Shown piece by piece: positions 6,031 through 49,941 of a stretch of DNA of 64,000 nt (position 1 is its first letter; each line of letters opens with the position of its first letter). The notes under the pieces are model-generated. The model was not told the origin of the DNA. It made no database searches and saw only the letters and a program-made list of their open reading frames with translations. Source of the DNA: Peptostreptococcaceae bacterium pGA-8 (GTDB taxonomy: Bacteria > Bacillota > Clostridia > Peptostreptococcales > Anaerovoracaceae); the NCBI GenBank assembly GCA_900112915.1, contig FONK01000001.1:124001-188000 (forward strand), read 5' to 3'. A program made the position numbers and the translations under genes.

Positions 6031-6050
6031 CAGTTAGGATGGGAGTTTAA

Positions 6051-8436
<2,386 letters not shown>

Positions 8437-8677
8437 AGGCTGAAAAATGACGTATTTCCGGGCTTTTCGGGCATCTGACCATTAACTTCGGAGAGCGAAT
8501 TTGACCGCAAAAACCGCTCCGACAGAACATATCAAAGGAAATGTTCGGAGGGTTGAGTAGGCGGTTTAGATGTTGGCAGGTTGAGTTAGTGATTTGGATA
8601 ACGACAGGTTGTGGCTGTGATTTAGATGTCAGACCGACGGATGATCTGAAAACAAAGGGATGGAGGTGGCAAGGTGT

Positions 8678-9553: not shown

Positions 9554-9605
9554 CAGACAGATAAAGGCTCCCACACTGCCATCAGCGGCGGGGAGTTGAA
9601 TAAAG

Positions 9606-12752: not shown

Positions 12753-13221
12753 AAAACACGGGGCTCCTTTATCCCCACAGCCGCTGGGTCTTGTGGAGAA
12801 GCGGAGATCCCGTGTTTGGGTGCCAGCAGCGAAAATGGACGCAAAAATCCTACCCGTCGCGGGAGAACGAAGTCTCCGCTTCAAGTTGCGTCCAGCTGTT
12901 CGCGTGCTGGTCTCTTATTCAGTTGTCAGCGTCACCGCCATGGAGAACAGTTCCTCTTTGTGCACTTGGAACGATCACGTTGGTGGGCTAGGATAGTTTA
13001 ACGTCGTATTCGGGACGATGGATTTGGTTAAAAATCTAAGCGAAAGCGCAAATATTCATTAAAAAGCATAGATTTCTGCTTGATAATGTGCTATAATAGA
13101 TTTTACGCTGGTGACTTTTACAGTCCTTCCATCCATGCTTACATCTTAAAGAAGCGAGCATGAGAAGTATTTGCCACTGTTTTGCCAGTGTTTTTCCGAG
13201 AGCATGAAAGGAGATGTGGAT
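12753..13221. other. Intergenic region between divergent phage relic and defence island
   Basis: No gene is convincing here. The left half shows GC-rich frames in several phases that look like decayed phage DNA. The right half turns AT-rich and has a perfect TATAAT at 13092-13097, but the hexamer 17 bases upstream (TAGATT) is a poor -35, so promoter assignment for the ABC-3C operon is tentative. Confidence 0.4.
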
Positions 13222-14277
13222 TTGTTGAACGAGTTGAATATGTCATCTTTTATCCAGACCATGCAGTCCGGATTTATGGAACACGACAAACAGGAATCGG
13301 CTGGCGTCTTTTTACTGAGTGCAATTAATGATCAGGAGTATGTCGGATTACACGGTTATCGAACCGATAATCTGAGCTCAAAGAAGATAAGCCGAATCGT
13401 CAGTCGAATCGATCATGTCCCTGATGGGATTAAGCAGGCCTCGCAGCTTCAGAATGTAATAGACGATACGATTAAGTATTTCCGCGAAGAGGCCATGAAG
13501 GATCTCAATCCACATCTAAAAGACGACACCATAGGAAATGTAATAAAGCTGATCAATGTAGATACAACCATCTTCGATAGTAAGAAAAAGAGCCTCCCCT
13601 CATTCCATGAGGAAGGTGATGACGCTCGTTTCCTCGCAGAGGTATTCCTATATGCAGTGAACCGGAACAATAAGAAGGTTGATGAGACCGTCGAGTATGA
13701 GGATGCACCGCTTCTTGCAGAGGCAAATTACGAGTGTCCGCTCTGCCATAAGAAGTTGGTGGACATGGTTAAGGGCAAAGCCATAAAGAAGTACTGCATT
13801 ACGCAGATATTCCCCGACGACCTCGATGACGCAACTGCAGGCAAATTCAGTAAGGTGTCTGCTGCTCCAGCCGATTATGACATTACGGAGAATCTGATCG
13901 CGTTGGACGAGGATTGTTACGACTGCTACCTGCTCAGTCCAACGGTCGAGGAATATAAACAGTTCCGCGAGATCAAGGAAGCAATCTCACGAAATTTTGC
14001 TGCAAAGGCATCGGTAAAAAGCATCCAACTGGAGGACGATATCAGGACGGTGCTCGATGCTCTTAGCCAGATCAGGGATGCATCAGAGATGGTTCAGCTT
14101 GAGTATGACGCCCTGCATGTTGAGGAAAAGTTTGAGCCAGAGAACTTTATCCTGAAGAACGAGACGCAGTTGCAGGTCGTCATGTACTACCGTTACATCG
14201 AGAAGGTATTATCGGAATCCGATGTGGACTTCGACACGATCGCCTCGGAGGTCAAGCTAAGTTCGCAGAAGCTGTAG
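13222..14277 (+). CDS. ABC-3C system effector-type protein with degenerate HNH-like zinc domain
   Basis: First gene of an ABC-three-component locus. The N-terminal 160 or so residues resemble the shared ABC-3C domain of uncharacterised function. A cysteine-rich centre follows: YECPLCHKKLV, then KYCITQIFP, then NLIALDEDCYDCYLLSP. Spacing and context recall an HNH endonuclease fold (CxxC, xDHIxP, NLIxLCxxC), but the catalytic His of DHI is Gln here, so cleavage is doubtful. The remainder is helical. I prefer a TTG start at 13222, 8 bases after AAAGGAG; upstream ATGs at 13204 and 13171 lack sites. ABC-3C systems are predicted conflict/anti-phage systems. Confidence 0.65.
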   Translation: MLNELNMSSFIQTMQSGFMEHDKQESAGVFLLSAINDQEYVGLHGYRTDNLSSKKISRIVSRIDHVPDGIKQASQLQNVIDDTIKYFREEAMKDLNPHLKDDTIGNVIKLINVDTTIFDSKKKSLPSFHEEGDDARFLAEVFLYAVNRNNKKVDETVEYEDAPLLAEANYECPLCHKKLVDMVKGKAIKKYCITQIFPDDLDDATAGKFSKVSAAPADYDITENLIALDEDCYDCYLLSPTVEEYKQFREIKEAISRNFAAKASVKSIQLEDDIRTVLDALSQIRDASEMVQLEYDALHVEEKFEPENFILKNETQLQVVMYYRYIEKVLSESDVDFDTIASEVKLSSQKL

Positions 14278-14286
14278 AAGGCAGGA

Positions 14287-14421
14287 ATGAGTCAGGCAGA
14301 AGTTATCGCTCAGCTTGCGGAATGGATACGAAACAAGTCCGAGCTGGATGCCAGCAGGCAGCTGGCGTGCAAAATCGTTGTCTCATTCTTCATACAGAAT
14401 TGCGAGATGTTCCATAAATGA
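14287..14421 (+). CDS. 44-residue small protein within the ABC-3C operon
   Basis: Between the effector and middle-component genes an ATG frame encodes MSQAEVIAQLAEWIRNKSEL through IQNCEMFHK. It begins 9 bases after the effector stop and ends in an ATGA overlap with the next start at 14418, so it is almost certainly translated. It looks like two amphipathic helices. It may be a subunit or a split-off piece of the neighbouring middle component. No homologue is recognised. Confidence 0.6.
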   Translation: MSQAEVIAQLAEWIRNKSELDASRQLACKIVVSFFIQNCEMFHK

Positions 14422-14642
14422 AAGTGCCAAGCAAGGTGACTCCATATAAGGAAAGCACCATCGCAAAGTTTCCGGTTGTGCTGTCACTTCTTGAAAAGAA
14501 TGACATGACACCATCGGAGCTGTATGCGAAGGTGCGGAAAAGCAAGATTAAAGATATAACCGAGTTCGTTGAGGTATTGGACTGCCTCTATGCGATGAAC
14601 AAGATAGAGATCAGGGAGGAGGTGCTCCACTATGTTGGTTGA
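14418..14642 (+). CDS. ABC-3C middle component (MC6-like)
   Basis: The 74-residue protein begins MKVPSKVTPYKESTIAKFPV and ends with a small winged-helix-like pattern (TPSELYAKVRK, then FVEVLDCLYAMNKIEI). The size, the LDxLYAxxxI ending and the position just before a DUF2326-type ATPase match the middle components of ABC-three-component systems, which probably link the ATPase to the effector. It overlaps the 44-residue gene before it and the ATPase gene after it, indicating tight translational coupling. Confidence 0.7.
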   Translation: MKVPSKVTPYKESTIAKFPVVLSLLEKNDMTPSELYAKVRKSKIKDITEFVEVLDCLYAMNKIEIREEVLHYVG

Positions 14643-16209
14643 AGTTCAGTGCGATAAGTTCGTAAAGTACGGACAGATCCGGAAGCCCATCCGCTTCCAT
14701 AGTGGATTGAATGCCGTTCTTGGCGACGACAATGGATCTAACTCCATCGGAAAATCTACCTTCCTGATGATCCTCGACTTTGTCTTCGGAGGCTCAGATT
14801 ACGTAAAGAAGTGCACGGATGTTCAGGAGAATGTTAAGGAGCACACGATCAACTTCACGTTCGAGTTCGACGAGATTCCATTTCATTTTGCAAGGAATAC
14901 TGTTGATTACAATAAGGTCGTGAGTTGCGATGAGAACTACAAGCCTCTGGAGGATGAGAAGCCACTGTCGATTTCAGAGTATTGGGCGTTCCTTTGCGAA
15001 AAGTACGGCCTCACGGCAGATGGAATCACTTGGAGGGGTGTCGTCTCGAGGTTCATCCGTGTCTACAAGCGCGACACGCTCGACGAGGAGCGTCCACTTC
15101 GTTCAGCCAAGGACGAGAAGGCCGCTGACGTCATCAAGAATTATATGTGCTTATTTGACAGGTACGCTGCGGTAGAGACACAGACCAAAATGGCTGTGGA
15201 TGCGGAGGATGAAAAAGAGGCCTGTCATAAGACGACGCAGCAATACAACCGCGTTCGTGCAGCGAAGAACGACAAAGAGAAGGTCGCCAACGAGACGCGG
15301 ATCTTGGAACTGGAGCAGCAGGAAAAAGAGCTGGCAGAAAACAGCAATCAGGGACTTCTCGATCTTGATAGCATGACGGCACGCAGGCTTACAGAGTTGA
15401 ACGAGCAGTTGATCAACTACCGTAGGCAGAGAGCACGTGTGCAGACACAGCTGAATGCCGTCCGTCGTGACATGACCGAGGAGAAAAAAGGCTTCAAAAG
15501 AACATTCACAGAGCTGGTGCGCTTTTTTCCAAGTGAGGAGTTCCGAACACTTGAGGATATAGAACGCTTTCACTCTAAGCTTGCAAAGATCCTTGCGGAG
15601 GAATTCGCGGAAACAGAAAAGGATCTCGCAACCACCTATGTGCTCCTGAATAATGAGATAGTCAAACTTCAGAACGAGGTCACAGAAATACAGAACATCC
15701 CAAATGTATCACAGGCAATATTGAAGGAATTTGCAAGAATCACGACAGAGCTGAATAATCTGCGCGAGGCAAATGAGAACTTTGATGAGCTTGAGAGACT
15801 AAAGAAGGTAGCTGCTGATTACGCAGAGACAAGGGACGCGGTCATTCATGATCAGTTGATAGGAATTGAGTCTTCTGTCAATCAGGCGATGAGGGAGATT
15901 AGCCTTTCCATCTTAAAGGACGCGACACACTTACCACCGATTCTTCGTATGGAGAAGTTGAACAAATATACCTTCAACACACCTAACGATGGTGGCACCG
16001 GAGCTCAGTATCGTGGACTGATCACCTTTGATCTGGCGAATATGGAGGTTGCAACTGTTCCCTTCGTCGTTCATGACTCCGTTCTGCTTAAGAATATCGA
16101 AAGACCAGTATTCTCTGAAATAATGAGGGTGTATGAAGCTGAAAAAGATAAAGATAAACAGGTTTTTATGGCTTATGACACACTTGATTCCTATGGAGAG
16201 GATACATGA
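14632..16209 (+). CDS. ABC-3C SMC-like ABC ATPase (DUF2326 type)
   Basis: The 525-residue ATPase has its Walker A in the N-terminus (residues about 30-45, GDDNGSNSIGKSTFL, with the long insert typical of DUF2326 proteins). A coiled coil runs at about 185-330 (charged heptads around EKEKVANETRILELEQQEK). The C-terminal ATPase half has VPFVVHDSVLL and MAYDTLDS. The architecture is like SMC/RecN proteins. In ABC-3C systems, ATP-driven dimerisation is thought to sense or move on nucleic acid and control the effector. Last gene of the four-gene overlapping operon; the regulator gene follows 84 bases on. Confidence 0.82.
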   Translation: MLVEVQCDKFVKYGQIRKPIRFHSGLNAVLGDDNGSNSIGKSTFLMILDFVFGGSDYVKKCTDVQENVKEHTINFTFEFDEIPFHFARNTVDYNKVVSCDENYKPLEDEKPLSISEYWAFLCEKYGLTADGITWRGVVSRFIRVYKRDTLDEERPLRSAKDEKAADVIKNYMCLFDRYAAVETQTKMAVDAEDEKEACHKTTQQYNRVRAAKNDKEKVANETRILELEQQEKELAENSNQGLLDLDSMTARRLTELNEQLINYRRQRARVQTQLNAVRRDMTEEKKGFKRTFTELVRFFPSEEFRTLEDIERFHSKLAKILAEEFAETEKDLATTYVLLNNEIVKLQNEVTEIQNIPNVSQAILKEFARITTELNNLREANENFDELERLKKVAADYAETRDAVIHDQLIGIESSVNQAMREISLSILKDATHLPPILRMEKLNKYTFNTPNDGGTGAQYRGLITFDLANMEVATVPFVVHDSVLLKNIERPVFSEIMRVYEAEKDKDKQVFMAYDTLDSYGEDT

Positions 16210-16293
16210 AAATTGGTAAGGGGCATATGGTATTAGAATTGTCACCGGATGGAAACGAATTGTTTGGATGGGCTTGGAAAAAGGAGAAAAAAG

Positions 16294-16557
16294 ATGAAGC
16301 AAGCGAGCAGGCATAAGAAAGAATTAAAAACACAGTTTAGCTATAACCGTTTGTGGAAGCTGTTGATTGACCGCAATATTCAGAAGCAGGAGCTCCAAAA
16401 GATGAGCGAGGTTAGTGCTGCTTCAATTGCAAAAATGGGACGAAGTGAGAATGTTACCACAGATGTACTCCTCAGAATTTGTGAAGCCCTCGATTGTAAT
16501 ATTGAGGATATTATGGAGCGTGTTCCAATCAAAGAATTGAATGAGAGAGATGAGTGA
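16294..16557 (+). CDS. XRE-family helix-turn-helix regulator
   Basis: The 87-residue protein is a Cro/C1-type HTH of the YozG-like branch (YNRLWKLLIDRNIQKQELQK, recognition region SAASIAKMGRSENVTTDVLL, then ICEALDCNIEDIMERV). I start at ATG 16294 (AAAGGAG just upstream); an in-frame upstream ATG at 16249 lacks a site. It lies between the ABC-3C genes and the DUF4338/Dpt operon on the same strand. Regulators of this type often control restriction-modification and defence operons. It probably controls the downstream operon. Confidence 0.85.
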   Translation: MKQASRHKKELKTQFSYNRLWKLLIDRNIQKQELQKMSEVSAASIAKMGRSENVTTDVLLRICEALDCNIEDIMERVPIKELNERDE

Positions 16558-16673: not shown

Positions 16674-19367
16674 ATGTTAAACCGGGAAATTCCATTTAGG
16701 CCTAAACTGGAGGGCGACTTCAGAATTAGGTTCTATAATGCCGTGTCCGGCATAGATGAAGAGACATCGCCAGTAGAAACAGAAAAAATTTCTAATGACG
16801 AGATTAATTGGGTACAGGACGTGTGTACCTATAATTTGGGACAAAGAAAAAAATACAGAGCTGTATGGATGCTATTTCGAGATTTAACTCGCGCTTCATG
16901 GAAGGCTTGTTATCGAGATGGTGTTCTATATATGAGTCTGCCGAGTCTGAACGGAGCGGATATACACGATTCCTCTTCACCAGAAGTAAAAAAGCTTCTG
17001 AGAAGTTGGATGAGTGAGAGCAGACATGAGCGCTTAGTTTCATATACTGATTTTATTCAGAGAATGGAACGGGCAAACACAAGTGGTCACAGTATCGATG
17101 AATTGGTAGCTGATGGAGAAGAATTAATCCTTCGATTAGAGCGTGCTCGTGATGGCGAGATACCCATCGCAGAAGCGATAGATCCTTATTTACAGCTGGT
17201 TGTCGAAAACGAAAGAGACCCGTTTACTGGTATAAAAACATCTGAAATATGGCGGTATTTCAGGCTAACATGGTCTACTCCAGCGGAGACTACTCCGGGG
17301 AGAACTATGCAGTATTTAATTCGTGACGCGGCTCATCCGATGCATGCTGTGATGGGAATTGCTTCACTGGAAAATTGTGCTGTGCAAATTACCTGCAGAG
17401 ATGACTACATTGGATGGAACCAAAAAGCATTTATTGACAGAATTACATTACTCAATTCCAATGACGCTAAAGCAGAATTTGAACAACTTCTAAAATATCT
17501 TGAGTTGGGAATCTCAGGAATTGACTATTCAGAGCTTTGCACTAAAGCAACTGTTTATAACCCATGCGACGAGGATATACAGCAACTGCTTGATTTTGCA
17601 AATAGTGCAGAGCAACGTCGGCAGGAGCTTTTGAAGGAGGCGCTTGAGGAAGGTATTGATGAAGATGAGAAAAGCGAGCTCGGAAGCATTTCAAAGGATA
17701 CAGAGGATGCTCTGTATAGGAGAAAAAGAGCAGAACAGCTTGCACGTCTTCTCATGGCAAAGAAATCTCTTTTAGAGATCTATTCATCTGATCGGTTTGA
17801 CGAAATATGGGTGGAATATTGCAGGAGCGAGATCGGCAATTCAGCTGTAAGAAGTGCGCTGGTCGCACAAAAGACACAGCACATTGGATCAAGCTTAATG
17901 GAATTAAACGTCTGTGGAGCAATTCCTCCATATAACGAGGTTTTGGGTGGAAAACTGGTTGCTCTCCTTGCAACATCGCCTCAGGTGATACATGATTACA
18001 AGGAGCGTTATTCTGATAAAGCCAGTATGATAGCCAGTCGGCTTAAAGGTGAGAATGTTATCAGACCAGCAGATCTGGTTTATATAGGAACTACCTCCTT
18101 GTACTATGTTGGTTCAAGCCAGTACAACAGATTGAAGATTCCGAGCGGTGTCTTTAACTCTGATTTCGATATCGTTTGGAAGAAGCTTGGAATGACCATA
18201 GGCTTTGGCACAATGCACATTAGCAAAGCCACTACTTTGAGCCTTACAGAAGCTACAAGCGATGGCTTCAACAGAATTAATCATGTATTTGGAGAGGGAG
18301 CAAGTCCTAAAATGCGTCTTCTCACCATGTCCATAAGGGAACTGCTTGAATCAACAAATGAAGATTCAAAGGATTTTTCTAAGCATTCAATGTCCCGAAT
18401 TGTATATGGGGCTTGCCTTGCTTCAAATACGTTGGACTATTTGCTCGGAAAGGCAGACGCTCCTGAATATTATACGGATATTGAGTATTATCAAGAGGGA
18501 ACTGAAAAAATAATCAATTATTGGAGAGAAAGATGGCTCAGAAGTAGGTTGAACTATGATCCGATTTTCGAGCGAATCCGAAGCTTTAATAAAGAAACCC
18601 TTCTTGTGGGAAATCAAATAGACGAAGATGAGGAATGGACATTTAAGAAACTGAAGGAGGTATCACATATGCCTGTAAACGATGATAAGAAAGTGGGACT
18701 GCAATTCATTCGTGACTTCTATCGCGGAACAAGCGCATATGCTGATCACGTAGATGAAGAGCTTCTTGCTCACATTCATCTGAAAACCAAGCTTGATGAT
18801 GCGATCATCAAAGCAGCGAAGCAGGGGAAAGACATTGTTCTTACTGGCAGCCCCGGGGACGGGAAGACTCACATTATCAGAATGCTAAAGAAAAAGCTGG
18901 AGAAACTTCCCAATTCTGCGATTGTCGAATTAGATGCAAGCACACGCTCGAATGAGGGAATTTACAAGTCTTGGAGGACTGCTCGGGAAAAGCAGGTTCC
19001 GTTTGTGATCGCTATTAATGCTGCTGTGCTGTATGCCGTTTATTGCGCATACCCCGATTTTGAACCGGTGAGAAATGCCTATTTGCAGATGATTAATTCG
19101 GTTGTCTTTCATAATGAGGAACAGCAGACGGATTCTCTTGTTGTGGTTGATCTTAGTAAGAGAGAGGCTTTGACAAGTGAGATTCTCAAGCAAGCAATTA
19201 TAAAGATGACTGATGAAAAGCATTATAAGGAATGCAAGGATTGTCCGTTTTTTGACACCTGTGTTGTCAAGAAGAACAGAGAACTGCTTAATACGGAGTT
19301 GTTTCAGGAAAGGCTTGATATTATATTGCGACGCGTATCGCTGCAGGGCTATCATGCGACCCTATGA
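16674..19367 (+). CDS. DUF4338 (DruA-like) domain fused to DptF-like AAA+ ATPase, 5' part (gene interrupted by TGA)
   Basis: Residues 1 to about 640 match DUF4338, the domain of Druantia protein DruA: YLIRDAAHPMHAVMGIASL with RDDYIGWN near 210-245, GAIPPYNEVLGGKLVALLA near 416, and TTSLYYVGSSQYNRL near 473. From about 650 begins a DptF-like ATPase, with Walker A at Thr724-Thr732 (TGSPGDGKT), a hydrophobic strand and Asp near 826 (SLVVVDLS), and a CKDCPFFDTC cluster near 854. DptF is the ATPase of phosphorothioation-dependent restriction. The frame meets TGA at codon 898, then continues in the same frame with ELQSFIAYLIFGNRTC, so the product here is truncated. Role: predicted anti-phage component. 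The fusion itself is unusual. Confidence 0.72.
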   Translation: MLNREIPFRPKLEGDFRIRFYNAVSGIDEETSPVETEKISNDEINWVQDVCTYNLGQRKKYRAVWMLFRDLTRASWKACYRDGVLYMSLPSLNGADIHDSSSPEVKKLLRSWMSESRHERLVSYTDFIQRMERANTSGHSIDELVADGEELILRLERARDGEIPIAEAIDPYLQLVVENERDPFTGIKTSEIWRYFRLTWSTPAETTPGRTMQYLIRDAAHPMHAVMGIASLENCAVQITCRDDYIGWNQKAFIDRITLLNSNDAKAEFEQLLKYLELGISGIDYSELCTKATVYNPCDEDIQQLLDFANSAEQRRQELLKEALEEGIDEDEKSELGSISKDTEDALYRRKRAEQLARLLMAKKSLLEIYSSDRFDEIWVEYCRSEIGNSAVRSALVAQKTQHIGSSLMELNVCGAIPPYNEVLGGKLVALLATSPQVIHDYKERYSDKASMIASRLKGENVIRPADLVYIGTTSLYYVGSSQYNRLKIPSGVFNSDFDIVWKKLGMTIGFGTMHISKATTLSLTEATSDGFNRINHVFGEGASPKMRLLTMSIRELLESTNEDSKDFSKHSMSRIVYGACLASNTLDYLLGKADAPEYYTDIEYYQEGTEKIINYWRERWLRSRLNYDPIFERIRSFNKETLLVGNQIDEDEEWTFKKLKEVSHMPVNDDKKVGLQFIRDFYRGTSAYADHVDEELLAHIHLKTKLDDAIIKAAKQGKDIVLTGSPGDGKTHIIRMLKKKLEKLPNSAIVELDASTRSNEGIYKSWRTAREKQVPFVIAINAAVLYAVYCAYPDFEPVRNAYLQMINSVVFHNEEQQTDSLVVVDLSKREALTSEILKQAIIKMTDEKHYKECKDCPFFDTCVVKKNRELLNTELFQERLDIILRRVSLQGYHATL

Positions 19368-19421
19368 GAACTTCAGAGCTTTATTGCCTATCTGATCTTT
19401 GGCAATCGAACCTGTAAGCAG

Positions 19422-20264
19422 TTGAATCAAACTGCTGGAAATAATCAATATGACCTTGTGAATTTGGTTTATTCCGGCAAGGGGAATTTGTTCACGGCTA
19501 TCAATAACGCAATTGATCCGATCAACATTTCGCATCCGGTTTGGGATGAAAAAATCCTTTTAAATGAGATCTCGACTGACTCTTGGATTGAAGGATATGC
19601 GGTTCCGGCGGAGGCAATCGCATATGACAATGATGATATGTTCAATCTGAGAAAACGGCAGTTTTTCTTCTTTAATCTTTATGGGGATGAACTGTTAAAA
19701 ATTCTCGATGACGATGCAGCAAGATTCCAAAAGTTTTTGGAGCAGGATAACGGGAGAATCATCAAGGATTTGATATCAAAGCTCAATGGTTTCTTTGGGG
19801 CGGTGAACGCGTCAAACACTAAACTGCAGATATGGTCGGGGCACCGCTACAATAACGAGCCCAGAAAGGTTTTGGTATCTGCAGGAGTTATAAAGAAGAA
19901 CGAATTTAGCGTTGGGAGACCGACACTTCTAAGTAGCATGCAGTCTGGTATTGATATGACATCTAATTATATTAGGCTGGAGAAAAAGGATTCTCCCAAT
20001 ATATTCCTTAAGGTGGATTTTGAGATGTATCTGCTTCTAAATGAAGCGGAGCGAGGCGTGCCAGTGTTGTTCATGGAATCTGACTTGGTGAAGAAGGTTT
20101 GGCGATTTATTGAACAACTACAGTCATATGGTGATATTGATGAGGAAGATTCCGTTGAGATTGGTCTAATGGATGTTCAGAATAAGCGTACAATCATGGT
20201 CGATGTTGATAGAGAGGATCAGAAGTATTCATCCATTGACAGCGAAAGAGCAAGGGAGGTGTAA
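19422..20264 (+). CDS. DptF-like ATPase, 3' part of the interrupted gene
   Basis: This frame is in phase with 16674-19367. Coding resemblance starts right after the TGA at 19365-19367 (ELQSFIAYLIFGNRTC), so the listed TTG at 19422 is not a true start and lacks a site. It supplies the C-terminal lid/helical part of DptF-like ATPases (segments YSGKGNLFTAINNAIDPINI, ILLNEISTDSWIEG). Joined to the upstream part, the whole gene encodes about 1196 residues, of which the last 556 or so equal the usual size of a free-standing DptF. The stop lies 5 bases before the next start. Expression in this strain would need readthrough, reversion or reinitiation. Confidence 0.65.
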   Translation: MNQTAGNNQYDLVNLVYSGKGNLFTAINNAIDPINISHPVWDEKILLNEISTDSWIEGYAVPAEAIAYDNDDMFNLRKRQFFFFNLYGDELLKILDDDAARFQKFLEQDNGRIIKDLISKLNGFFGAVNASNTKLQIWSGHRYNNEPRKVLVSAGVIKKNEFSVGRPTLLSSMQSGIDMTSNYIRLEKKDSPNIFLKVDFEMYLLLNEAERGVPVLFMESDLVKKVWRFIEQLQSYGDIDEEDSVEIGLMDVQNKRTIMVDVDREDQKYSSIDSERAREV

Positions 20265-20269
20265 GCGAG

Positions 20270-21754
20270 ATGGAACAGATTTATCTTCGTGCTGCACGCA
20301 AAGCGGTTGATAAGACGTACATAGGCTTTACTCCGAATGGGAGTTCTATTAAGCCTGTGCATATTGCAGGCGGATCACTTCGCTGTATTTATGGCTCATA
20401 TAATCGGACAAAGAATATTAAACGGATGGCATTGGTATCTGATGCAAAAGGTAATATTCCTACAGGAAACGAAGCGGAGACCATTTATAGACTTTTATCC
20501 TACGAAGAAAAGATAGAGGACAACATCTCCGAAAATGCTCTGGAGTCGATGCGAAATGTAATGCAGAGACTGCTTTCTGTTGATAAAGGCGTATATGTGG
20601 TAAAAGGCCTAAAGGATGTAATGATATCGTATTCGGCTGGATCAAAATACTTCTTAACCAGCAGAGCTATGTATGAGGATGCTGGCGAATTTGTTGGAGG
20701 TGTTATAAGGGCATATTGTCCAGATCTTGCCAATTACGTCAGGGATGTACTTGATGCAGGTAACGATCCTATTACGCTGCTGTTTGAGCCAGTCCTTGAA
20801 GCAGATATGGAGGTTTTTGCTGATCAAAATCAGCACGAGGAACTTCCTGCATTTAAAACTATGAACGATAGCACTCGCTGGTTTGTTGAGGGAATAAAGG
20901 AAGGGGGAAATTGCCTGTTAGATAATTTCCACCATCATCCAAATCCACTGACCCAACTTCGCCTTTTCAACTTTTTCTGTATTGTGAACCTTATTCGTTA
21001 CATGACATTGCTGGAAGCCTTCTATTGTGATGAGAGCGTCAGACCTATTCTTTTGGACTTTAGTGGGAAAAGTCCAAGCTTTAGCAGCGTAGCAAGAATG
21101 TCCGAGATGTCATACACACAAATGTATAAATCAATAAACCGCTTTTATGCATGGGGCTACGCAAAATGGCTTGACGAGCAGGGCTTTTCAAAGAACGATC
21201 TTTTAAATTCAGAAACTCCTGTGTATGAGAAGGGAAAGTCCGTTTCTAAGGCAAGCAAGGAGGAGTTAGATGCCCTATGGTCACTTGCAAAGGAACGAGC
21301 AAGTAATGCGAACGGTGAGGATGTTTACCTTGAATTTGGAGAGACTATGTATGACATGCTCGCTTTAGAGGCATCCTCTCATCCAGTGACATATATTAAG
21401 GCTCTCGGCACATCGTCTGGACTGTTATATCCCCCAGATAAGCTTCATCCCAACAAGCGTTTTGTTATCTCACAGGACATTCTCGAAATGTTACTGCGTA
21501 GTTGCGTAAAATCTGGAGAAGTGATTAGTGGCATGGAAATTAGAGAACGGCTTTGGAATCGATTTGGAATTGTTGTAGGTGGAAGCCAATTCGAAATGCG
21601 AATGCTTCAGTCTGGTGGAATGATTCTGCAAGCAGATGAAGATGCATTGGAGGAAAATTTTTCTTCGTTTGCCGCGACGTTAGAGTCGATGGATTTTGCA
21701 GAGGTTATGGCAGATGGCATTCTGCAAATTAGAATGGGAGGTGTTGCAAGATGA
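20270..21754 (+). CDS. DptG-position protein of the DUF4338/Dpt operon
   Basis: The 494-residue protein follows the DptF-like gene by 5 bases and overlaps the DptH-like gene by 4 bases (ATGA type). Its size and place match DptG, the poorly characterised middle partner in DptFGH systems. I see no catalytic motif. It appears mostly alpha-helical, with HHHPNPLTQLRLFNFFCIVN in the centre and a predicted winged-helix-like C-terminus (EMLLRSCVKSGEVISGMEIR). Sequence alone did not let me name the family, so DptG is inferred from context. It probably bridges the two ATPases. Confidence 0.55.
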   Translation: MEQIYLRAARKAVDKTYIGFTPNGSSIKPVHIAGGSLRCIYGSYNRTKNIKRMALVSDAKGNIPTGNEAETIYRLLSYEEKIEDNISENALESMRNVMQRLLSVDKGVYVVKGLKDVMISYSAGSKYFLTSRAMYEDAGEFVGGVIRAYCPDLANYVRDVLDAGNDPITLLFEPVLEADMEVFADQNQHEELPAFKTMNDSTRWFVEGIKEGGNCLLDNFHHHPNPLTQLRLFNFFCIVNLIRYMTLLEAFYCDESVRPILLDFSGKSPSFSSVARMSEMSYTQMYKSINRFYAWGYAKWLDEQGFSKNDLLNSETPVYEKGKSVSKASKEELDALWSLAKERASNANGEDVYLEFGETMYDMLALEASSHPVTYIKALGTSSGLLYPPDKLHPNKRFVISQDILEMLLRSCVKSGEVISGMEIRERLWNRFGIVVGGSQFEMRMLQSGGMILQADEDALEENFSSFAATLESMDFAEVMADGILQIRMGGVAR

Positions 21755-24700
21755 TGGACAAGCAATCCTTAGTAACAGAACTGCTACGAGAGCAGCTTGA
21801 GGTCGCAAAGACCGGGATAATTATAAAAGGGATAGATGGCATTAATCCAAGCGCCATTGCCAAGAGGATCCTCGATGCATATAAGCCTCTTTATATTGCT
21901 GTGATTGGATATGGTTCTATATTGGAAAATGATCAGGATGATTTTTCCATTACGGATTCAATTGAAAAGGCGGTTTTGTGGAGAAGTAACCCTGAGTGTG
22001 CAGGGAATATTCTTGTATTTATAAAAAATGATACAGATAAGCTGCATTCCTTAGCGGAGTTTGACGTCGTGACGACAAGGGATATCTCGCGCTATTTATT
22101 GGATCAGCAGCTGAAGGGCGATAATAATACCCCTACTCACAATTTCTGGGAGGCACTTCGAGACACATCTGATTACTACAACTTCGACGCTTTATATGAA
22201 TTTGTTGAGGCGGTAGTGGAAGCAGAGAGTCCGGCTGAGGCGATTCCCAATAATATGTGGAGAATCAACTTGTTGTTGGACGCGTCTATTTTGGGAACAA
22301 AGAACGACCCAAAGGAACGTCTTGCCAAAAATAGAGACCTTATATTTGCAATCGGACAGTTGAGCGAGGACTCGAGAAAGAAGCTGAGCCGCTCCCTTGC
22401 AAGGACAAAGCCCGGAGATAAGGACAGACTGCAAAAGGCCTATCACAGTCTGCAGAGCCTGTATAAATACGGTAAGCGCGAAACACTTAAGGACTTAGAT
22501 TTAGAGACAGTTCAGGAGTTGTTCTCTGCATCTCAAAAAAAGAGCAAGAAGGCAGAAACGACTCAAAGTAATCCATCAGGTGATAATCCAGAGATAACAA
22601 TAGAAAATACGCCTATTAAGCCAAAGGAATTAGATAATCTTATTTCTGATGCGGTCGTTTTTGGCGACGAAGAAGAATTGGATAACATTCAGGAACTTCT
22701 TAAGGAATTAAGCAAGCATTATGATACTGAGACGGAGGAAAATGATGATGAAATTCCTCCTGTAGGAGGAATTTTTGGCGACAGAAATATTGTTCTTGAA
22801 TCTCATCAGACTGACCTTCGGAAGTTGGTTGGGAAGTTCTGCAATCTATCCTCTTGGGGCGGATTGATGGAAACTGATGAGAGTGTTTTGAAGGATGCAA
22901 TATCTGCTGATATATCCGAATCAAAATACTTCGACCCAGAAAGCAAGCAATCCATCATAGCCTTTTCAGGAGGCATTGATGGGAGTCAGGCTCTCTTTGA
23001 TTTCATCGTGCAATTCGATGCGCAGTTTGACGCAAAGGGACTGGATGGTGCCGAGCATTTTGCACCAATCATCAATAATCTTAAGACACAACGGGAAAAG
23101 CTCTTTTCCTCTATCGATATGATCATGTACCATCCGGTGCTTTTCTTTGGCGCATCGGAGGATAATAGAAAAAATCTTATAGGCTATATCCAAGCATGGG
23201 AAAGCCTTTATCATGCATTTTGTGTGAATGAGCCTACCATGAGACAGATCAGTGCCGGAGGGACAAACTTTATTGCGAGGGCTATCCTTTTACTTGATGT
23301 CCTCTATGTTAAAACACCAAAGGAGTGGAAGGGAATTCTGCTTCCTCTACATCCCATATATCTTTGGCGGTTTTATGAGGTATTCCGTACCTTGCCCAAC
23401 AAGAAGGCATCCTTGAGCGGCGAGGATAAGGAGGCGTTGTCCTCTGTGCTTTCACAGTTGCCACAGGTACTTAGCTTTATTATTGCAAATGGCGTTGTTA
23501 CAGAATCCTCCGAGGATCGTGTGCTACCGTGCTCTGGAAGTATTGAGATGCTGCCAACCTTCGAGAACAAGACAAATCGTTATTTAGGAAATGACGGAAC
23601 TGAATCAATTGAAGAAATTCTCACAAGGTGGGTAGGCTTTGCACCTTATACAAGAAATGAGATCAGGATCTGCTCAGTAGATGCACCGGATCTTATTGGA
23701 ATTCTACGACAGATCAAAAGCTTCATGGACAAAAACGCCTGCAGGCGTGTTGTGTACGATATGTATCTGACCAGAAATCAAAACGGTAATACAGAGCTTT
23801 CTAAGTTGGATTATGCTGGTAAGGATTATGAGATTGGCGAGTATATTAAGCAAGACAGAATCTCTATCAGCGTACGCAACGTTCGTTCAGCGAATGATGT
23901 AAAAGCTGCGTTGGATTCTAGGCCGGTTCATGTTGCGTTTTACTTTGATCAGTCCTCATACGCTATTGAATTCGGACCAAATAGTCATAATCTGTACATC
24001 AACCCTTTGGTTATTACCTATGACTATGATTTTGATGAGATCCAGCATAAGGGCAGCATATTCCCTTCATCCGAGATGGATTCCGGATTGATAGGCGATT
24101 ATCACAAGCTAATGAAATCTGCGGATGTCATTAGCAACAACATGAATCCGCGTACAACCTACAATGGCAGCGCAGATATGACAGCGGTGGTATCAACTAT
24201 TGAAGCTGGTTTAACACAGTGGCTTGTCGTTGCTGATAGAGATACCAACAACTATCAGCCAGAGAACGCTATTCCCATTGGGGAGATGCAATATGATAAG
24301 CGAATGGTAAACGCGTGGGCTTCAGATAGCTCGAGAATAATCTCTCAATATCTGACACTTCTTCGCGGATATAATCTGTACCCCAAGGCAGAAACGCTAA
24401 TAAACATATTGCGTCAGTTTGGGCATATTGCATCTAATGGACTCATCAGCATTCCAAAGTTTGGTGCCGATGCACAAGCGATTGACAATAAGAAGAAGGG
24501 CTTAATAGGAACGTTATTTGCAGCCTCTTGGTATGTGAGAAAGCACGAGGATGCTCTTATAGCCTCCTTGGATGATGATAAGGCAAGACTGTGGCTGCAA
24601 AATCGTAAGGACAGTAATGAACGGGCGGATCTTGTCGGGCTTTATTACGACAAAGACAGCAACATATTACACATACAGCCCATTGAGGTTAAGACTCGTG

Positions 24701-26487
24701 ATGAGTCACCTGATGCGACATTCACTAAGGATGAAATTGACTCAAGGAGCTTTAACATTACTGGGCATGCTGCTGACCAGATAGCTTCCGTTGTTGAGAC
24801 GCTGAGAGAAATATTCGCAATGGGCGAAAATACAGCTGATATGTTTACTTCAGCTCGCCGTGAGGTTTTAAAGTATCAGATAGTATCTGAATGCTTTAGA
24901 AATGTGCACGACGCGGAATGGCAGAAAAGGTGGTACGACATTTTAAAGAAGGCTTTTTCAAATAGTCAGAGAAAGAATGTCACCATAGATGTTTCCGGAC
25001 TTCTAATGCACATCAAGCTTAATGAAGCCTCTGGTGGAGATCATATTACATGCCGTCACCCGGAATATGATGACTGCCAAATTGATTATTGGAAGTTGAC
25101 AGCCAAGGAGATTCAAAGAGATGTTCTTGGTGATGGAACACCAGTAAAGGAAATGTGGACACCAGATTTTGATGTTTCAGAGGAAGGTGATCAATCAGCA
25201 CAGGATAACGATGCTATAGTTGATTCTGATGTTGAAGAAGTAACTGAGGTAGCACAACAAGACGCTGCTAAGACCTACAAGTACACATTTCCCTCTACAG
25301 ACGATGTCGGTATGGTTGCGGCGACCGCCGTCTCATTCCTTGGGAAAAAGGATAAGCAAAACGAGGAAGCGGAAAAAACAGTAAACGGCGTTAGCTACGA
25401 TGAAATCGAGCAGCTTGTAAAGGATTTTAAGAGGTCGTGCGGAGATTATCATGTATCGCTTAGGGAATGCGATGCTAAAAACACGGTTGTCGGCCCGAGT
25501 GTAATTCGTTTGAAGTTCAGACTGGGAAGAGGACAGGCACTTCAGGGATTATCGAGTCACTTGGAGGATATTGGCAGAGAAATGAAGCGCACTGGTGTGA
25601 TAATTCAGCAGGTGCCAAACTCCGATGAGTTGCTCCTTGATGTGCCGAGACTCAGGCGTGAAAAAGTATTATTTAAGAATGTCATATCATCACTGCCAGA
25701 GGTCAAATCACCAGAGCAGCTTTTCTTCCCACTTGGCCTGACTCCAAATGGTAAGGATCTGGTTGAGGATCTTGGGCAAATGCCTCATATGCTCGTCGGT
25801 GGTAGTACAGGCTCCGGTAAATCTGTGTTCCTGTTTACCATGCTTGCAGCGATGCTGATGACTCATCCGCACAGGGAGGATCTGCAGTTAATCCTATCAT
25901 CCTCTAAGCTTGAGGACTTTATCCACTTTGAAGGATTACCTCACCTTTATTCTGGTAGTGTCATTTCCGATGCAACAGAGGCTACGAGAGTTATTAAAGA
26001 GGTGGTCTTCGAAGAATCAGAACGTAGAGGGAAGCTCTTGGCAGAGGCGAGGGTTGCAAACATTAGCGAATATAACAAAATCGCTGAGGAAAAGCTTGCG
26101 CCTATCGTTGTTGTTATAGATGAATTTGCTGACCTTGCAGACCAATTAGAGTCCAAGAAGGAGCAAAATGCATTTTATAAGCCTGTACAGCGTATCGCGC
26201 AAGCAGGAAGGAGCAGAGGCATTCACCTTGTGATTTGCACCCAGCGACCTGAAGCAAAATTAGTGCCTTCAACAACAAAAGCGCAGTTAAATGGTAGAGT
26301 TGCTTTACGAGTTAATGATGGGATTTCTTCACGAATGATAATCGAAGCTCCAGATGCTCAATACCTTCAGAAGCATGGGGATATGATTTATAAAAACGGA
26401 GATGTTGTTGAGAGAGCGCAGGGCTATTTGATAGAAACACCGGAGCTTGATGAAATCGTGAGGGATGTAATCAACGGAAAAAATTAA
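21751..26487 (+). CDS. dptH: DptH-like protein: PD-(D/E)XK-type centre plus FtsK/HerA-type ATPase
   Basis: This 1578-residue protein has a C-terminal FtsK/HerA-family motor: Walker A GGSTGSGKS at residues 1350-1358, Walker B VVVIDEFADLAD around 1453-1464, and GRSRGIHLVICTQRP, the arginine/sensor region of FtsK-like DNA pumps. Residues 1-900 are large and uncharacterised. At 960-981, ADLVGLYY and then PIEVKT give Asp960 and Glu979-x-Lys981, the layout of a PD-(D/E)XK nuclease. A low-complexity acidic linker (around 1145-1180) separates the halves. DptH is the DNA-translocating partner in phosphorothioation-dependent restriction. It overlaps the gene before it by 4 bases. Confidence 0.75.
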   Translation: MMDKQSLVTELLREQLEVAKTGIIIKGIDGINPSAIAKRILDAYKPLYIAVIGYGSILENDQDDFSITDSIEKAVLWRSNPECAGNILVFIKNDTDKLHSLAEFDVVTTRDISRYLLDQQLKGDNNTPTHNFWEALRDTSDYYNFDALYEFVEAVVEAESPAEAIPNNMWRINLLLDASILGTKNDPKERLAKNRDLIFAIGQLSEDSRKKLSRSLARTKPGDKDRLQKAYHSLQSLYKYGKRETLKDLDLETVQELFSASQKKSKKAETTQSNPSGDNPEITIENTPIKPKELDNLISDAVVFGDEEELDNIQELLKELSKHYDTETEENDDEIPPVGGIFGDRNIVLESHQTDLRKLVGKFCNLSSWGGLMETDESVLKDAISADISESKYFDPESKQSIIAFSGGIDGSQALFDFIVQFDAQFDAKGLDGAEHFAPIINNLKTQREKLFSSIDMIMYHPVLFFGASEDNRKNLIGYIQAWESLYHAFCVNEPTMRQISAGGTNFIARAILLLDVLYVKTPKEWKGILLPLHPIYLWRFYEVFRTLPNKKASLSGEDKEALSSVLSQLPQVLSFIIANGVVTESSEDRVLPCSGSIEMLPTFENKTNRYLGNDGTESIEEILTRWVGFAPYTRNEIRICSVDAPDLIGILRQIKSFMDKNACRRVVYDMYLTRNQNGNTELSKLDYAGKDYEIGEYIKQDRISISVRNVRSANDVKAALDSRPVHVAFYFDQSSYAIEFGPNSHNLYINPLVITYDYDFDEIQHKGSIFPSSEMDSGLIGDYHKLMKSADVISNNMNPRTTYNGSADMTAVVSTIEAGLTQWLVVADRDTNNYQPENAIPIGEMQYDKRMVNAWASDSSRIISQYLTLLRGYNLYPKAETLINILRQFGHIASNGLISIPKFGADAQAIDNKKKGLIGTLFAASWYVRKHEDALIASLDDDKARLWLQNRKDSNERADLVGLYYDKDSNILHIQPIEVKTRDESPDATFTKDEIDSRSFNITGHAADQIASVVETLREIFAMGENTADMFTSARREVLKYQIVSECFRNVHDAEWQKRWYDILKKAFSNSQRKNVTIDVSGLLMHIKLNEASGGDHITCRHPEYDDCQIDYWKLTAKEIQRDVLGDGTPVKEMWTPDFDVSEEGDQSAQDNDAIVDSDVEEVTEVAQQDAAKTYKYTFPSTDDVGMVAATAVSFLGKKDKQNEEAEKTVNGVSYDEIEQLVKDFKRSCGDYHVSLRECDAKNTVVGPSVIRLKFRLGRGQALQGLSSHLEDIGREMKRTGVIIQQVPNSDELLLDVPRLRREKVLFKNVISSLPEVKSPEQLFFPLGLTPNGKDLVEDLGQMPHMLVGGSTGSGKSVFLFTMLAAMLMTHPHREDLQLILSSSKLEDFIHFEGLPHLYSGSVISDATEATRVIKEVVFEESERRGKLLAEARVANISEYNKIAEEKLAPIVVVIDEFADLADQLESKKEQNAFYKPVQRIAQAGRSRGIHLVICTQRPEAKLVPSTTKAQLNGRVALRVNDGISSRMIIEAPDAQYLQKHGDMIYKNGDVVERAQGYLIETPELDEIVRDVINGKN

Positions 26488-26509: not shown

Positions 26510-27190
26510 GTGTCTGAGCCTATATTTGTACAAGGCGTATTTAAAGAAGAATTAAAGAACAGATTTCTTTGCCTTGTAGAGGTGGATGGCAAGGATACTC
26601 TCTGCTATATCCCATCGTCCTGCAGACTGAGTAACTTTGTTAATTTGGTTGGGAAAGATGTATTGCTTGCGCACAATCAGTCATCTAATACCAGAACAGA
26701 GTATGCGGTTTATGCGTTCCGTGACAAAAGACAGTTTGTCTTGCTCAACATGTCTCAGGCCAATAGAGTAATCGAAAGAGGAATTAAGGGCAGGAGGTTC
26801 TCCTTCCTCGGAAAGAGAGTTAACGTAAAAAAGGAATACCGCATTGAGGGGTACAAGAGTGATCTCTATATTGATGATTCTCATACGATAGTTGAGATAA
26901 AAAGTATTCTATCCTTCGATAGGAATGCGCTTTTCCCAACGGTGTATTCCGAGAGGGCAATTGATCAGCTAACAAAGCTCAGTGACCTCATGGATAAGGG
27001 CTACAAGGCATGTTACCTATTTGCGTCATTAAGTCCAAGGGTGAAAGAAGTAAAAATAAATGGGGAAATAACAAGGTATCACGAGTTGTTTATGGAATGC
27101 GTCAATAAAGGAATGGTATTAAAAGGGTATTCAATAAGGCTTATTGATAATGAGCCCGTAATACACTCTGAAATTAAAGTTATTGTCTGA
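26510..27190 (+). CDS. SfsA-family nuclease-like protein linked to the Dpt operon
   Basis: The 226-residue product has SfsA features in order: an OB-fold-like N-terminal part (FKEELKNRFLCLVEVDGKD), a PxxxRLxxF-type segment (SSCRLSNFVNLVG), KKEYRIEGYKSDLYI, then VEIKSILSF, the ExK nuclease strand, and FPTVYSERAIDQLTKL. SfsA proteins are PD-(D/E)XK-fold DNA/RNA nucleases, better known as a sugar-fermentation stimulation factor. The GTG start at 26510 lies 22 bases after dptH. In this setting it is most likely an accessory effector of the defence operon. Standard SfsA is a little longer and more conserved, so this is a divergent member. Confidence 0.72.
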   Translation: MSEPIFVQGVFKEELKNRFLCLVEVDGKDTLCYIPSSCRLSNFVNLVGKDVLLAHNQSSNTRTEYAVYAFRDKRQFVLLNMSQANRVIERGIKGRRFSFLGKRVNVKKEYRIEGYKSDLYIDDSHTIVEIKSILSFDRNALFPTVYSERAIDQLTKLSDLMDKGYKACYLFASLSPRVKEVKINGEITRYHELFMECVNKGMVLKGYSIRLIDNEPVIHSEIKVIV

Positions 27191-29631: not shown

Positions 29632-30582
29632 ATGAAGGGAAGAAAAGATATAGCTGAAAATGTAACGGTAATACAGAAACAGAGAGGTATAAAAGATTAT
29701 GCAGTTGGAATATACGCTCGTGTAAGTACAAGCCATAAAGCTCAAATGGATAGTTTATCGGCACAAGTATCGGGGTTGACGAGACTGGCAGTTGCACATA
29801 GAACATGGTTTGTTGCGGATGTTTTTATTGATGTTTCATCTGCTAAGACAGACTCGACAAGATCAGAATTTAATAGAATGATAAATGAGTGCGAGCAAGG
29901 GAATTTAGATATTATTCTTACTAAAAGTCTTAGCCGTTTTGGACGTGATGCTAAAGAAGGCTTAGAAGCTATTAGAAAAATTCGAGCAGCAGGGAAAAGA
30001 ATTATCTTTGAGAAAGATAAGATAGATACAGAGACCGTTAAAGATGAACTCCTGGTTAGCATAATTGAAGCATGTGACCAAGCAGAAAATGACTGGAGAA
30101 GTGAGAACATACGCTTAGGCTTGAAATGCAGAGCCGAGGATGGAACATCAGGACTTTACAATAGAGTCTGTTACGGCTATAGAAAAGATAAAAATGGAAT
30201 GCTTATCATTAATGATGAAGAGGCAAAAGTTGTTAAAATTATTTTTGACTGGTATCTTGAAGGATACAGTATCGGTGGAATAATCGATAAACTGGCAGAA
30301 AAGAAGATACAGACATCTAAAGGTAAAGAACGATGGAGTAAAAGAGCAATTGAATCCATGTTAACACGAGAAAAATATACAGGTGATGTGGCAATTGCTG
30401 ATTCTGGAGGATCTGATAATCGATATTTGAATAATAATCATCACGAAGGGATAATTTCAAAAGAGCAATTTGAAGCAGTTCAACTAGAAATGGAACTGCG
30501 TAGTAATGTGGAAATTGGAGAAGATGGAAAGGCTCGAAGAAAGAGTAGGAAATATAGTTCGAAGAGAGGTGATAAATTATGA
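29632..30582 (+). CDS. Large serine recombinase, C-terminally truncated
   Basis: Site-specific recombinase. Catalytic Ser32 sits in YARVST and the arginine set in LTKSLSRFGRD and ENDWRSENIRLGL. A recombinase domain follows, from about 150 to 300 (GYSIGGIIDKLAEKKIQTSK, TREKYTGDVAIADSG). At about residue 310, after RRKSRKYSSK, where full-length relatives enter a zinc ribbon and coiled coil of 150-200 more residues, the product stops. The catalytic domain is intact, but DNA-target binding by the zinc domain is lost. The stop overlaps the ATG of the next gene by 4 bases. It may be a relic kept for coupling or a minimal recombinase. Confidence 0.85.
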   Translation: MKGRKDIAENVTVIQKQRGIKDYAVGIYARVSTSHKAQMDSLSAQVSGLTRLAVAHRTWFVADVFIDVSSAKTDSTRSEFNRMINECEQGNLDIILTKSLSRFGRDAKEGLEAIRKIRAAGKRIIFEKDKIDTETVKDELLVSIIEACDQAENDWRSENIRLGLKCRAEDGTSGLYNRVCYGYRKDKNGMLIINDEEAKVVKIIFDWYLEGYSIGGIIDKLAEKKIQTSKGKERWSKRAIESMLTREKYTGDVAIADSGGSDNRYLNNNHHEGIISKEQFEAVQLEMELRSNVEIGEDGKARRKSRKYSSKRGDKL

Positions 30583-33002: not shown

Positions 33003-33968
33003 TGTATAGATGAGATAAATGGGATTTCTGAAAATATAACAGTAATACAGCCTCGACGAGTAATAAAAGATTATGCCGTTGGAATTTATGTCATAGTCAG
33101 TACAAACTATAAAGAACAAATGAATAGTGTGGCAATACAGGCGTCAGGACTGACAAGACTTGCGTCTGCACATAGAACATGGTTCGTGGCGGATATCTTT
33201 ATTGATGTTGCTTCTGCTTCTGCAAAGGCAGATTCATATAGGTCTGAGTTTAGCCGTATGACTAGTGAATGTGAGAATGGGAGCATTGATATTATTCTTA
33301 CAAAAAGCATCAGCCGATTTGGACGCGATACACAGGAATGTCTTGAAGGCATCCGAAAGATTCGTGCCGCAGGAAAAAGAATTATTTTTGAAGGAGATAA
33401 GAGTGACACAGAAGCAATATGTGATGAACCACTTATCAGCGTTATTGAAGCCTGTGAACAGTCTGAGAATGAATGGAGAAGTGAAAATATACGCTGGGGA
33501 CTGAAGAAGAGAGCAGAGAGTGGTACATCAGGATTATATAATCGTCCTTGCTATGGATATAAAAAAGATAAACACGGGATGCTTGTCATAGACGATGAGC
33601 AGGCGAAGGTAGTCATAAATATTTTTAACTGGTATTTGGAAGTGTACAGCATTGGCGGGATTATAAATAGATTGGAAACAAACGGTATTAAATCGCCGAA
33701 AGGAAAAGACCGCTGGAGCAAGAAAGGAATTGAATCTACATTGACCAGGAGGAAGTATACCGGAGATGTGGCAATTGCTGATCCCGGTAGCTCTGAGAAT
33801 CAGTATTTGAATAAGGATCATCATGAGGGAATAATATCAAAAGAACAATTTGAAGCAGTCCAACTTGAAATGGCATCTCGTAGCAATGTGGAAATTGGAG
33901 AAGATGGAAAGATTCGGAGAAAGAGTAGGAAATATAGTTCGAAAAATAGGAAATGGGACTTGATATAA
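33003..33968 (+). pseudogene. Degenerate second serine recombinase copy, also C-terminally truncated
   Basis: A close homologue of the 29632 recombinase, collinear from SENITVIQ to SKEQFEAVQLEM and RRKSRKYSSK, where it too breaks off. Two defects show. The counterpart of the first start codon is absent (the frame is open to 33003 without a good start before ATG 33120). And the motif YARVST has become YVIVST, which changes the conserved Arg near the catalytic Ser. It is probably inactive. A different cargo follows: a 78-residue protein and a restriction-endonuclease-like pair. Confidence 0.8.
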
Positions 33969-34534: not shown

Positions 34535-35338
34535 ATGAATTTTTTACAAAATATTTTTCGTAAAAAGAATCAATTGAAAGATAGTATAGGAAACAATAAA
34601 AATCAGGGAATGGAGTTGATTGATTTAGTATTCTCTCTATACGATTATAGGATAAATAGAGAAAATTTAATCAATCCTAAACTTTTTAAAAACATTAGAG
34701 TTCAAGGGAAAAATATTGAACACAAAATAGATATATACATCGAATTTGTTCAGATGAATAATTTAGAAAGAACGGTTATAAAAATAATAGATAACAAAAT
34801 TGTAAAAGATGAAGATGTATGGCAGTTCGATAACCTCTTAAAAGATTTAGGTTACTTCCCTAAAGGAGTTTTATATTATAACGATAAAATAGATGAAAAA
34901 GCATTGAATATTGCTAATGACAAACATATTCAAGCTATATATTTTGATATTATGGAAGAAATAAGAACAAATGTTTTACAATCTATAAGTAAAGTTTTAC
35001 CTGATGAAAATGTTATTGGTGATCCTTTTTGGACGTTAATGCAAATTGATGAACGAACAAAAAATAATACAGGAAATTATTTTATTACAGGGAATTCTTT
35101 ACCACTTTTTACATCAAAAAAGCTCGCCGATGTATGCTGTAAACAACAAAAGGGTTACGCTGTATTTGGTATTTCACAACGTCATTTAGTATTTTTGATT
35201 TCTCTTGCAGAGTGTGGGCTTTTGCCATATAAATTAGGTCTTATTCAACCAAGTAAACAAAGCTCTTCCACAATAGACTATAATGTAAAAATGTATAGCG
35301 TAGATTATAACATTATTAGAGAAGTATATGTGAGGTGA
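34535..35338 (+). CDS. Restriction-endonuclease-like protein, probably catalytically degenerate
   Basis: The 267-residue protein starts after AAGGAGG. Its N-terminal part aligns in layout with the next gene's PD-(D/E)XK domain: HKIDIYIEF gives an Asp (residue 66), but the ExK strand reads VIKIIDN, so the Glu and Lys appear lost. The C-terminal half has IGDPFWTLM and LPLFTSKKLADVC, GISQRHLVFL, shared with the downstream protein. The pair thus looks like a gene duplication with one inactive copy, perhaps a heterodimer. It is followed after 4 bases by the active-looking partner. Confidence 0.65.
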   Translation: MNFLQNIFRKKNQLKDSIGNNKNQGMELIDLVFSLYDYRINRENLINPKLFKNIRVQGKNIEHKIDIYIEFVQMNNLERTVIKIIDNKIVKDEDVWQFDNLLKDLGYFPKGVLYYNDKIDEKALNIANDKHIQAIYFDIMEEIRTNVLQSISKVLPDENVIGDPFWTLMQIDERTKNNTGNYFITGNSLPLFTSKKLADVCCKQQKGYAVFGISQRHLVFLISLAECGLLPYKLGLIQPSKQSSSTIDYNVKMYSVDYNIIREVYVR

Positions 35339-35342
35339 AGAT

Positions 35343-36053
35343 ATGGGAAGAGGTGATGATTTTGAAAAAGTAGTTGAAGATATTTATTCACTACTTTCTG
35401 AGAAAGAGAGAATAAATGCAAAAATCCAAACGAAAGTCAAAATGGTGGGTGATGATGGAGCGACTCATGAAATAGATGTTCTTTATTCATTTGAGCACTT
35501 TGGTGTATTTTATCAAGTTGGTATAGAATGTAAAAATTGGAAAAAAACAATAAATGTTAGTGAATTAAGAAATTTCGATTACAAGCTGAAACATATTGGT
35601 GGAATTAATGGGATATTTATTTCTGCAGAAAGTGAATTTCAAAATGGTGCTTGTAAGGTATCGGAGTATAATGGAATTAAATTGATAAAATATGATGATT
35701 TTGATGCTTTTGCTATGTCTGAATATACTGAGTACTTAAAACCAGATTTCAATACAATAGGAGATCCTTTTTGGATGCTAATGAATACAGATGGTAAAAC
35801 ATCTATAGAAAAAAACAGTGTATTCTCAAATAAGATTTTACTATTTTCAAGTAAAAAATTGGCTGAAGATTACAAGTATAAAAATTTTGAGCAGAAATGT
35901 AATATTATTGTGGTTGGTGTTTCACAGGAACATTTAAAAGAAATAAAAAAAATTAATGAGTATAATAAGATTCGTGTGTATTTGATAGATTTTACTTTAG
36001 AAATTGCTGAATTAAGTCGATGGGATATAGATTTATATATACGACGGGATTAG
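35343..36053 (+). CDS. PD-(D/E)XK (Mrr-like) restriction endonuclease-type protein
   Basis: The 236-residue protein has a Mrr/PF04471-like nuclease core: HEIDVLYSF with Asp45, then VGIECKNWK with Glu62-x-Lys64, and later IFISAESEFQNGACKVSEYN, the typical third strand and helix. Its C-terminus, from IGDPFWMLM onward, matches the upstream protein. No methyltransferase is adjacent, so it is either a modification-dependent nuclease or the effector of a defence pair. The ribosome binding site AGGTGA is within the upstream stop. The module ends at the 36333 repeat. Confidence 0.75.
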   Translation: MGRGDDFEKVVEDIYSLLSEKERINAKIQTKVKMVGDDGATHEIDVLYSFEHFGVFYQVGIECKNWKKTINVSELRNFDYKLKHIGGINGIFISAESEFQNGACKVSEYNGIKLIKYDDFDAFAMSEYTEYLKPDFNTIGDPFWMLMNTDGKTSIEKNSVFSNKILLFSSKKLAEDYKYKNFEQKCNIIVVGVSQEHLKEIKKINEYNKIRVYLIDFTLEIAELSRWDIDLYIRRD

Positions 36054-49916: not shown

Positions 49917-49941
49917 AATCAATACATTCAATAACTTAACA

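Follow-up and report, generated by a model that had tools for sequence, protein, structure and literature searches.

The question raised by this locus is whether the large protein H, encoded within a stretch of 64,000 nt of DNA from Peptostreptococcaceae bacterium pGA-8 (contig FONK01000001.1, positions 124,001 to 188,000; referred to here as the window), carries a PD-(D/E)XK nuclease centre in the same polypeptide as its FtsK/HerA motor, and what such a nuclease would contribute to the operon in which H is found. A preliminary description of the sequence had proposed such a centre at D960, E979, and K981, ahead of the motor, so that one chain might both move on DNA and cut it.

Gene organization and domain order of H

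H lies in an operon with the gene order HTH, DruA-F, G, H, and SfsA-like:

16249..16557, forward strand: small HTH-like gene upstream of DruA-F, a presumed regulator; present upstream in most relatives
16674..20264, forward strand: DruA(DUF4338)-F fusion; DruA PF14236, E 3e-32; SspF/DndF-like P-loop
20270..21754, forward strand: G, DptG-like, 494 aa; overlaps the start of H; weak MAD7 match
21751..26487, forward strand: H, DptH/DndH-like, 1578 aa; methyltransferase-like fold, restriction endonuclease (REase) domain, and FtsK motor
26510..27190, forward strand: SfsA-like PD-(D/E)XK protein, 226 aa; PF03749, 2.2e-16; 22 nt after H

The related clostridial loci share this core order, with G preceding H, in every case where the contig extends far enough to show it, the exception being the rearranged locus L013. 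In L013 a single ORF (5829-10286) joins residues 1-720 of DruA-F in frame to H from approximately residue 825; this is either a deletion or an assembly fusion, and the REase domain and the motor are retained. The tripartite F-G-H arrangement, similar to that of DndFGH, is present in the window and in the relatives, F being interrupted in the window copy. An in-frame TGA (19365-19367) splits DruA-F into two ORFs, whereas ten relatives have an uninterrupted frame at this place. Since TGA terminates other genes of the window, this codon is read as a stop. Either the window copy of DruA-F is damaged or the assembly contains an error there; with F interrupted, a functional complex may not arise from this locus. 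H itself is uninterrupted.

The SfsA-like gene lies directly 3' of H wherever this could be checked, in 13 of 13 related loci (11 from genomes and two from viral contigs), and its product retains the Asp and the E-x-K in the relatives compared. The housekeeping SfsA is encoded separately, on contig C13 of the same genome. No mention of SfsA in defence was found in the literature searched. Because this protein is a second PD-(D/E)XK candidate within the operon, H is not the sole possible cutter. In the genome (99.96% complete), neither DndC (TIGR03183) nor a PAPS-reductase-domain protein (PF01507, a model that detected all 14 controls) was found, i.e., the DndC or SspD-type enzyme by which phosphorothioate-dependent restriction (Dnd/Ssp) is recognized did not turn up, so that Dnd- or Ssp-type phosphorothioation is not expected.

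Other genes in the window were noted as well. Upstream of the operon, the gene pair at 13171-16209, which encodes a DUF2326 ATPase and a protein of 368 aa, has a high-identity counterpart only in locus L003 and is probably a separate defence module. Downstream of the operon, serine-recombinase-like genes or fragments (29632-30582, 33120-33968, and 55617-56924, named by eye) are in keeping with a mobile region. Two adjacent genes at 34535-36053, one of which has an Mrr-type restriction endonuclease domain, have C-terminal halves that appear similar by eye. At 47911-49919, a Cas3-like ORF, in which HD and helicase motifs were picked out by eye, extends into a CRISPR-type repeat (49684-49919; four copies of 35 nt), which suggests a truncated cas3 beside an array.

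Within H, the following domains and residues were located:

23560..24330, forward strand: class I methyltransferase fold, residues ~604-860; VIA Z up to 13.5
24388..25113, forward strand: REase domain of PD-(D/E)XK type, residues ~880-1121; AlphaFold2 model and structural matches
24496..24498, forward strand: K916, in the long helix preceding the active site (model helix 908-931); invariant 22/22
24571..24573, forward strand: D941, second invariant Asp of the REase domain; invariant 22/22
24628..24630, forward strand: D960, predicted metal-binding Asp; invariant 22/22
24685..24687, forward strand: E979 of ExK, predicted metal ligand; located where a predicted strand ends; invariant 22/22
24691..24693, forward strand: K981 of ExK, predicted catalytic Lys; invariant 22/22
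24778..24780, forward strand: Q1010, in the helix after ExK; invariant 22/22; aligned with the invariant Gln of DptH
25699..26466, forward strand: FtsK/HerA-type motor, residues 1317-1572; motor match at 1317-1500; PF01580, E 3.7e-32; FtsK chains 2ius/2iuu

The N-terminus of H is predicted to be alpha/beta in a 1160-residue model. For residues ~604-860, the top VIA-align rows are methyltransferases, but sequence inspection recognized neither SAM nor catalytic motifs in this module, and GxG is absent from the loop after strand 1, so it looks like a non-catalytic copy. The motor carries the Walker A sequence GSTGSGKS at residue 1351. The nuclease domain precedes this motor within one chain, as had been described.

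Candidate catalytic residues and their conservation

In the translation of 21751-26484, the motifs ADLVGLYY and PIEVKT occupy residues 959-966 and 977-982, and D960, E979, and K981 are placed as previously claimed. By itself the bare D...ExK pattern in H is no better than chance. H contains 14 instances of the loose pattern D-x(10-25)-[DE]-x-K versus 19 in shuffled sequences, and one of the strict pattern with hydrophobic neighbours, at D960, versus 0.66 in shuffles; Asp, Glu, and Lys together make up 347 residues of the protein. These counts would fit a chance motif lying within a different fold. That explanation is nevertheless extremely unlikely in view of the strict conservation of the residues, the predicted fold, and the alignment with the motif region of DptH, and a chance origin was rejected on the basis of conservation and fold.

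Homologues of H were collected from several sources. A scan of genome contigs yielded 11 relatives from clostridia and other MAGs, at ~68-82% identity. More distant members (38, 26, and 25% identity) came from searches at the phylum level, haloarchaeal and Hymenobacter members from plasmid records, and two further loci from viral contigs. Order-level searches around three of the relatives detected no additional members, and the family is therefore sporadic. Two neighbouring genes of the Hymenobacter locus L020 (3677-8508) encode the protein with the REase domain and the FtsK motor as separate polypeptides, which fits two cooperating modules. On the haloarchaeal plasmids L018, L019, and L039, DruA is a separate gene ahead of F-G-H, accompanied by a divergent block of two uncharacterized genes and by a large helicase of DEAD/DEAH type.

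Conservation across these homologues, which the preliminary description had named as a test, proved strict. D960, E979, and K981 are kept in all 22 sequences compared, a set that reaches down to ~20% identity and includes haloarchaea and Hymenobacter; four of the 22 (L039-L042) were absent from the profile used to locate the REase domain. Fifteen columns of the REase domain are invariant in the 22 sequences, the window copy included: P878, K916, G920, D941, W948, L949, D960, E979, K981, G1005, Q1010, R1036, E1038, L1040, and Q1043. In the full-length H alignment (16 sequences) only 26 columns are invariant, among them D960, E979, and K981. Judged from these alignments, conservation of the three residues exceeds chance. 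D941 is possibly a further metal ligand.

Predicted fold of the nuclease domain

H residues 840-1160 were modelled with AlphaFold2 from an alignment of 14 sequences that excluded rows from plasmid records (pLDDT 77, pTM 0.80). The model contains, in order, a long helix (908-931), a short strand, a strand following D960, a strand ending in E979-V-K981, and the helix carrying Q1010. Such an order of elements is expected for the PD-(D/E)XK fold, and the 1160-residue model reproduces the same elements. Foldseek searches with the domain model gave weak E-values, none of them significant, and VIA-align was therefore run as a second look. Its top rows were HamA (Z 7.8) and McrC (7.1), followed by Nt.BspD6I, FokI, Bse634I, MspJI, Shedu, and Hjc. 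Nearly all of the rows were PD-(D/E)XK enzymes, although every Z was below 8, where chance arrangements are also encountered and a single match would not suffice. Pfam searches of the REase domain, also carried out member by member, did not match any nuclease family, and PDB sequence-profile searches with the H and DptH domains matched nothing relevant. The assignment is thus based on the uniform identity of the structural matches taken together with the invariant residues.

The region therefore has the predicted restriction-endonuclease-like alpha/beta core that the preliminary description anticipated, and the residues and modelled fold together support H residues 880-1121 as a real PD-(D/E)XK nuclease domain, with DNA cleavage as its predicted activity. 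The domain might in principle have kept the fold and lost catalysis, its conserved acidic residues and Lys serving structural or DNA-binding roles only, as related capture systems include inactive REase domains. We regard this as improbable: D960, E979, K981, and Q1010 never vary in the 22 bacterial and archaeal sequences, and residues of this kind are not usually retained once a domain has been inactivated.

Relationship to DndH and other known systems

In nine classical DptH proteins collected with TIGR03237 and tblastn, the residues S-D-D ... E-x-K-x-G ... Q are invariant. The REase-domain profiles of H and DptH align on these SDD...ExK...Q residues (E 6.4e-5) with a score of 40.3, versus a maximum of 22.7 in 100 column shuffles and 14.6 with the reversed profile. 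A comparison of the N-terminal 1160 residues shows the families of H and DptH to be collinear across 480 columns (hhalign probability 91.6%, E 8e-7). On the other hand, H is unmatched by the DptH equivalog model TIGR03237 at its curated cut-off, which finds no protein in the whole genome, and by the PADLOC DndH models. The earlier label "DptH-like" holds; since the equivalog model is unmatched, we describe H from these profile comparisons as a divergent DptH/DndH relative and do not name it DptH.

DndH has been described as containing, in order, an inactive DAM methyltransferase, an REase domain that keeps its key residues, and a HerA/FtsK motor, and DndF variants with an N-terminal DUF4338 domain, as well as FtsK-type motors, have also been described (Rakesh et al. 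2024, PMC10853773; Wu et al. 2022, cited therein). DndH in that scheme also has an inactive SF2 domain at its N-terminus, along with HTH and beta-sandwich domains. DndFGH has been reported as a translocation-coupled nickase (PMC11662687). The domain order of H corresponds to this published layout, and its nuclease is therefore known in kind and not a new invention. It had also been suggested that this nuclease supplies the missing cutting activity of the system; cutting is not missing from such systems, given the published REase domain of DndH and the nickase activity reported for DndFGH.

Our preferred reading, which we hold with considerable confidence, is that H is a DndH-type restriction subunit in which cutting or nicking by the REase domain (880-1121) is coupled to FtsK translocation. 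The residues, their conservation, the predicted fold, the domain order, and the collinearity with DptH that underlie it were all computed here. In the proposed mechanism, the N-terminal parts and the non-catalytic methyltransferase-like module of H would contact DNA, and G and F would form a complex with H as its DNA-binding and nucleotide-sensing partners. The C-terminal FtsK motor would move the complex along DNA, so that cutting would be coupled to translocation. The REase domain would cut or nick DNA, probably nicking in preference to double-strand cutting; D960 and E979 would hold the metal, and K981 would serve as the catalytic lysine.

The SfsA-like protein could instead be the main cutter, the REase domain of H mainly gripping or gating DNA. 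In all clostridial relatives its gene comes immediately after H, the protein keeps D..ExK, and it is distinct from the housekeeping SfsA. We consider this unlikely, since the haloarchaeal and Hymenobacter loci gave no SfsA-like match, yet the REase residues of H are kept in them, and the invariance of all catalytic-type residues in H argues for catalysis. A wider and more tentative possibility, which we would sooner doubt than accept, is that the operon constitutes a phosphorothioation-independent restriction machine of four components (DruA-F, G, H, and the SfsA-like protein) with two PD-(D/E)XK enzymes, one within the translocase and the other an SfsA-derived partner, in which the DruA domain, and not sulphur modification, would aid in self/non-self discrimination.

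H extends the cut-and-move layout of DndH to divergent, apparently phosphorothioation-free systems that current models do not name as DptH. The exact residues of H are now available for mutation. The constant SfsA-like neighbour offers a testable lead to a defence role for an SfsA-family nuclease; it and the lack of phosphorothioation genes merit further study.

Among known systems, Druantia type I shares the DruA/DUF4338 domain, present here as a fusion with F and in haloarchaea as a gene of its own beside F-G-H; unlike in Druantia type I, a helicase ORF of DruE size was not found beside the operon within the window. SspH of SspFGH (PMC8092258) shares with H the F-G-H logic and the FtsK-like C-terminus, but the PADLOC SspH match is restricted to the motor part of H, and SspABCD is not expected in a genome in which no PAPS-reductase-domain protein was found. 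HamA of Hachiman (PDB 8vx9, 8vxy) is the best structural match to the nuclease of H (over 191 residues) and, like H, is a D/ExK defence nuclease; in contrast to the nuclease of H, it forms a subunit of its own, acting with a helicase and outside any FtsK chain, and the identity is 13%. H differs from DndH/DptH in being missed by TIGR03237 and the PADLOC DndH models, in the lack of phosphorothioation genes in its genome, and in the SfsA-like gene that follows it, and resembles DndH/DptH in the F-G-H operon order, in the succession of inactive methyltransferase, REase, and HerA/FtsK within one chain, in the SDD...ExK...Q motif with its collinear profile match, and in the fusion of DUF4338 (DruA) to F.
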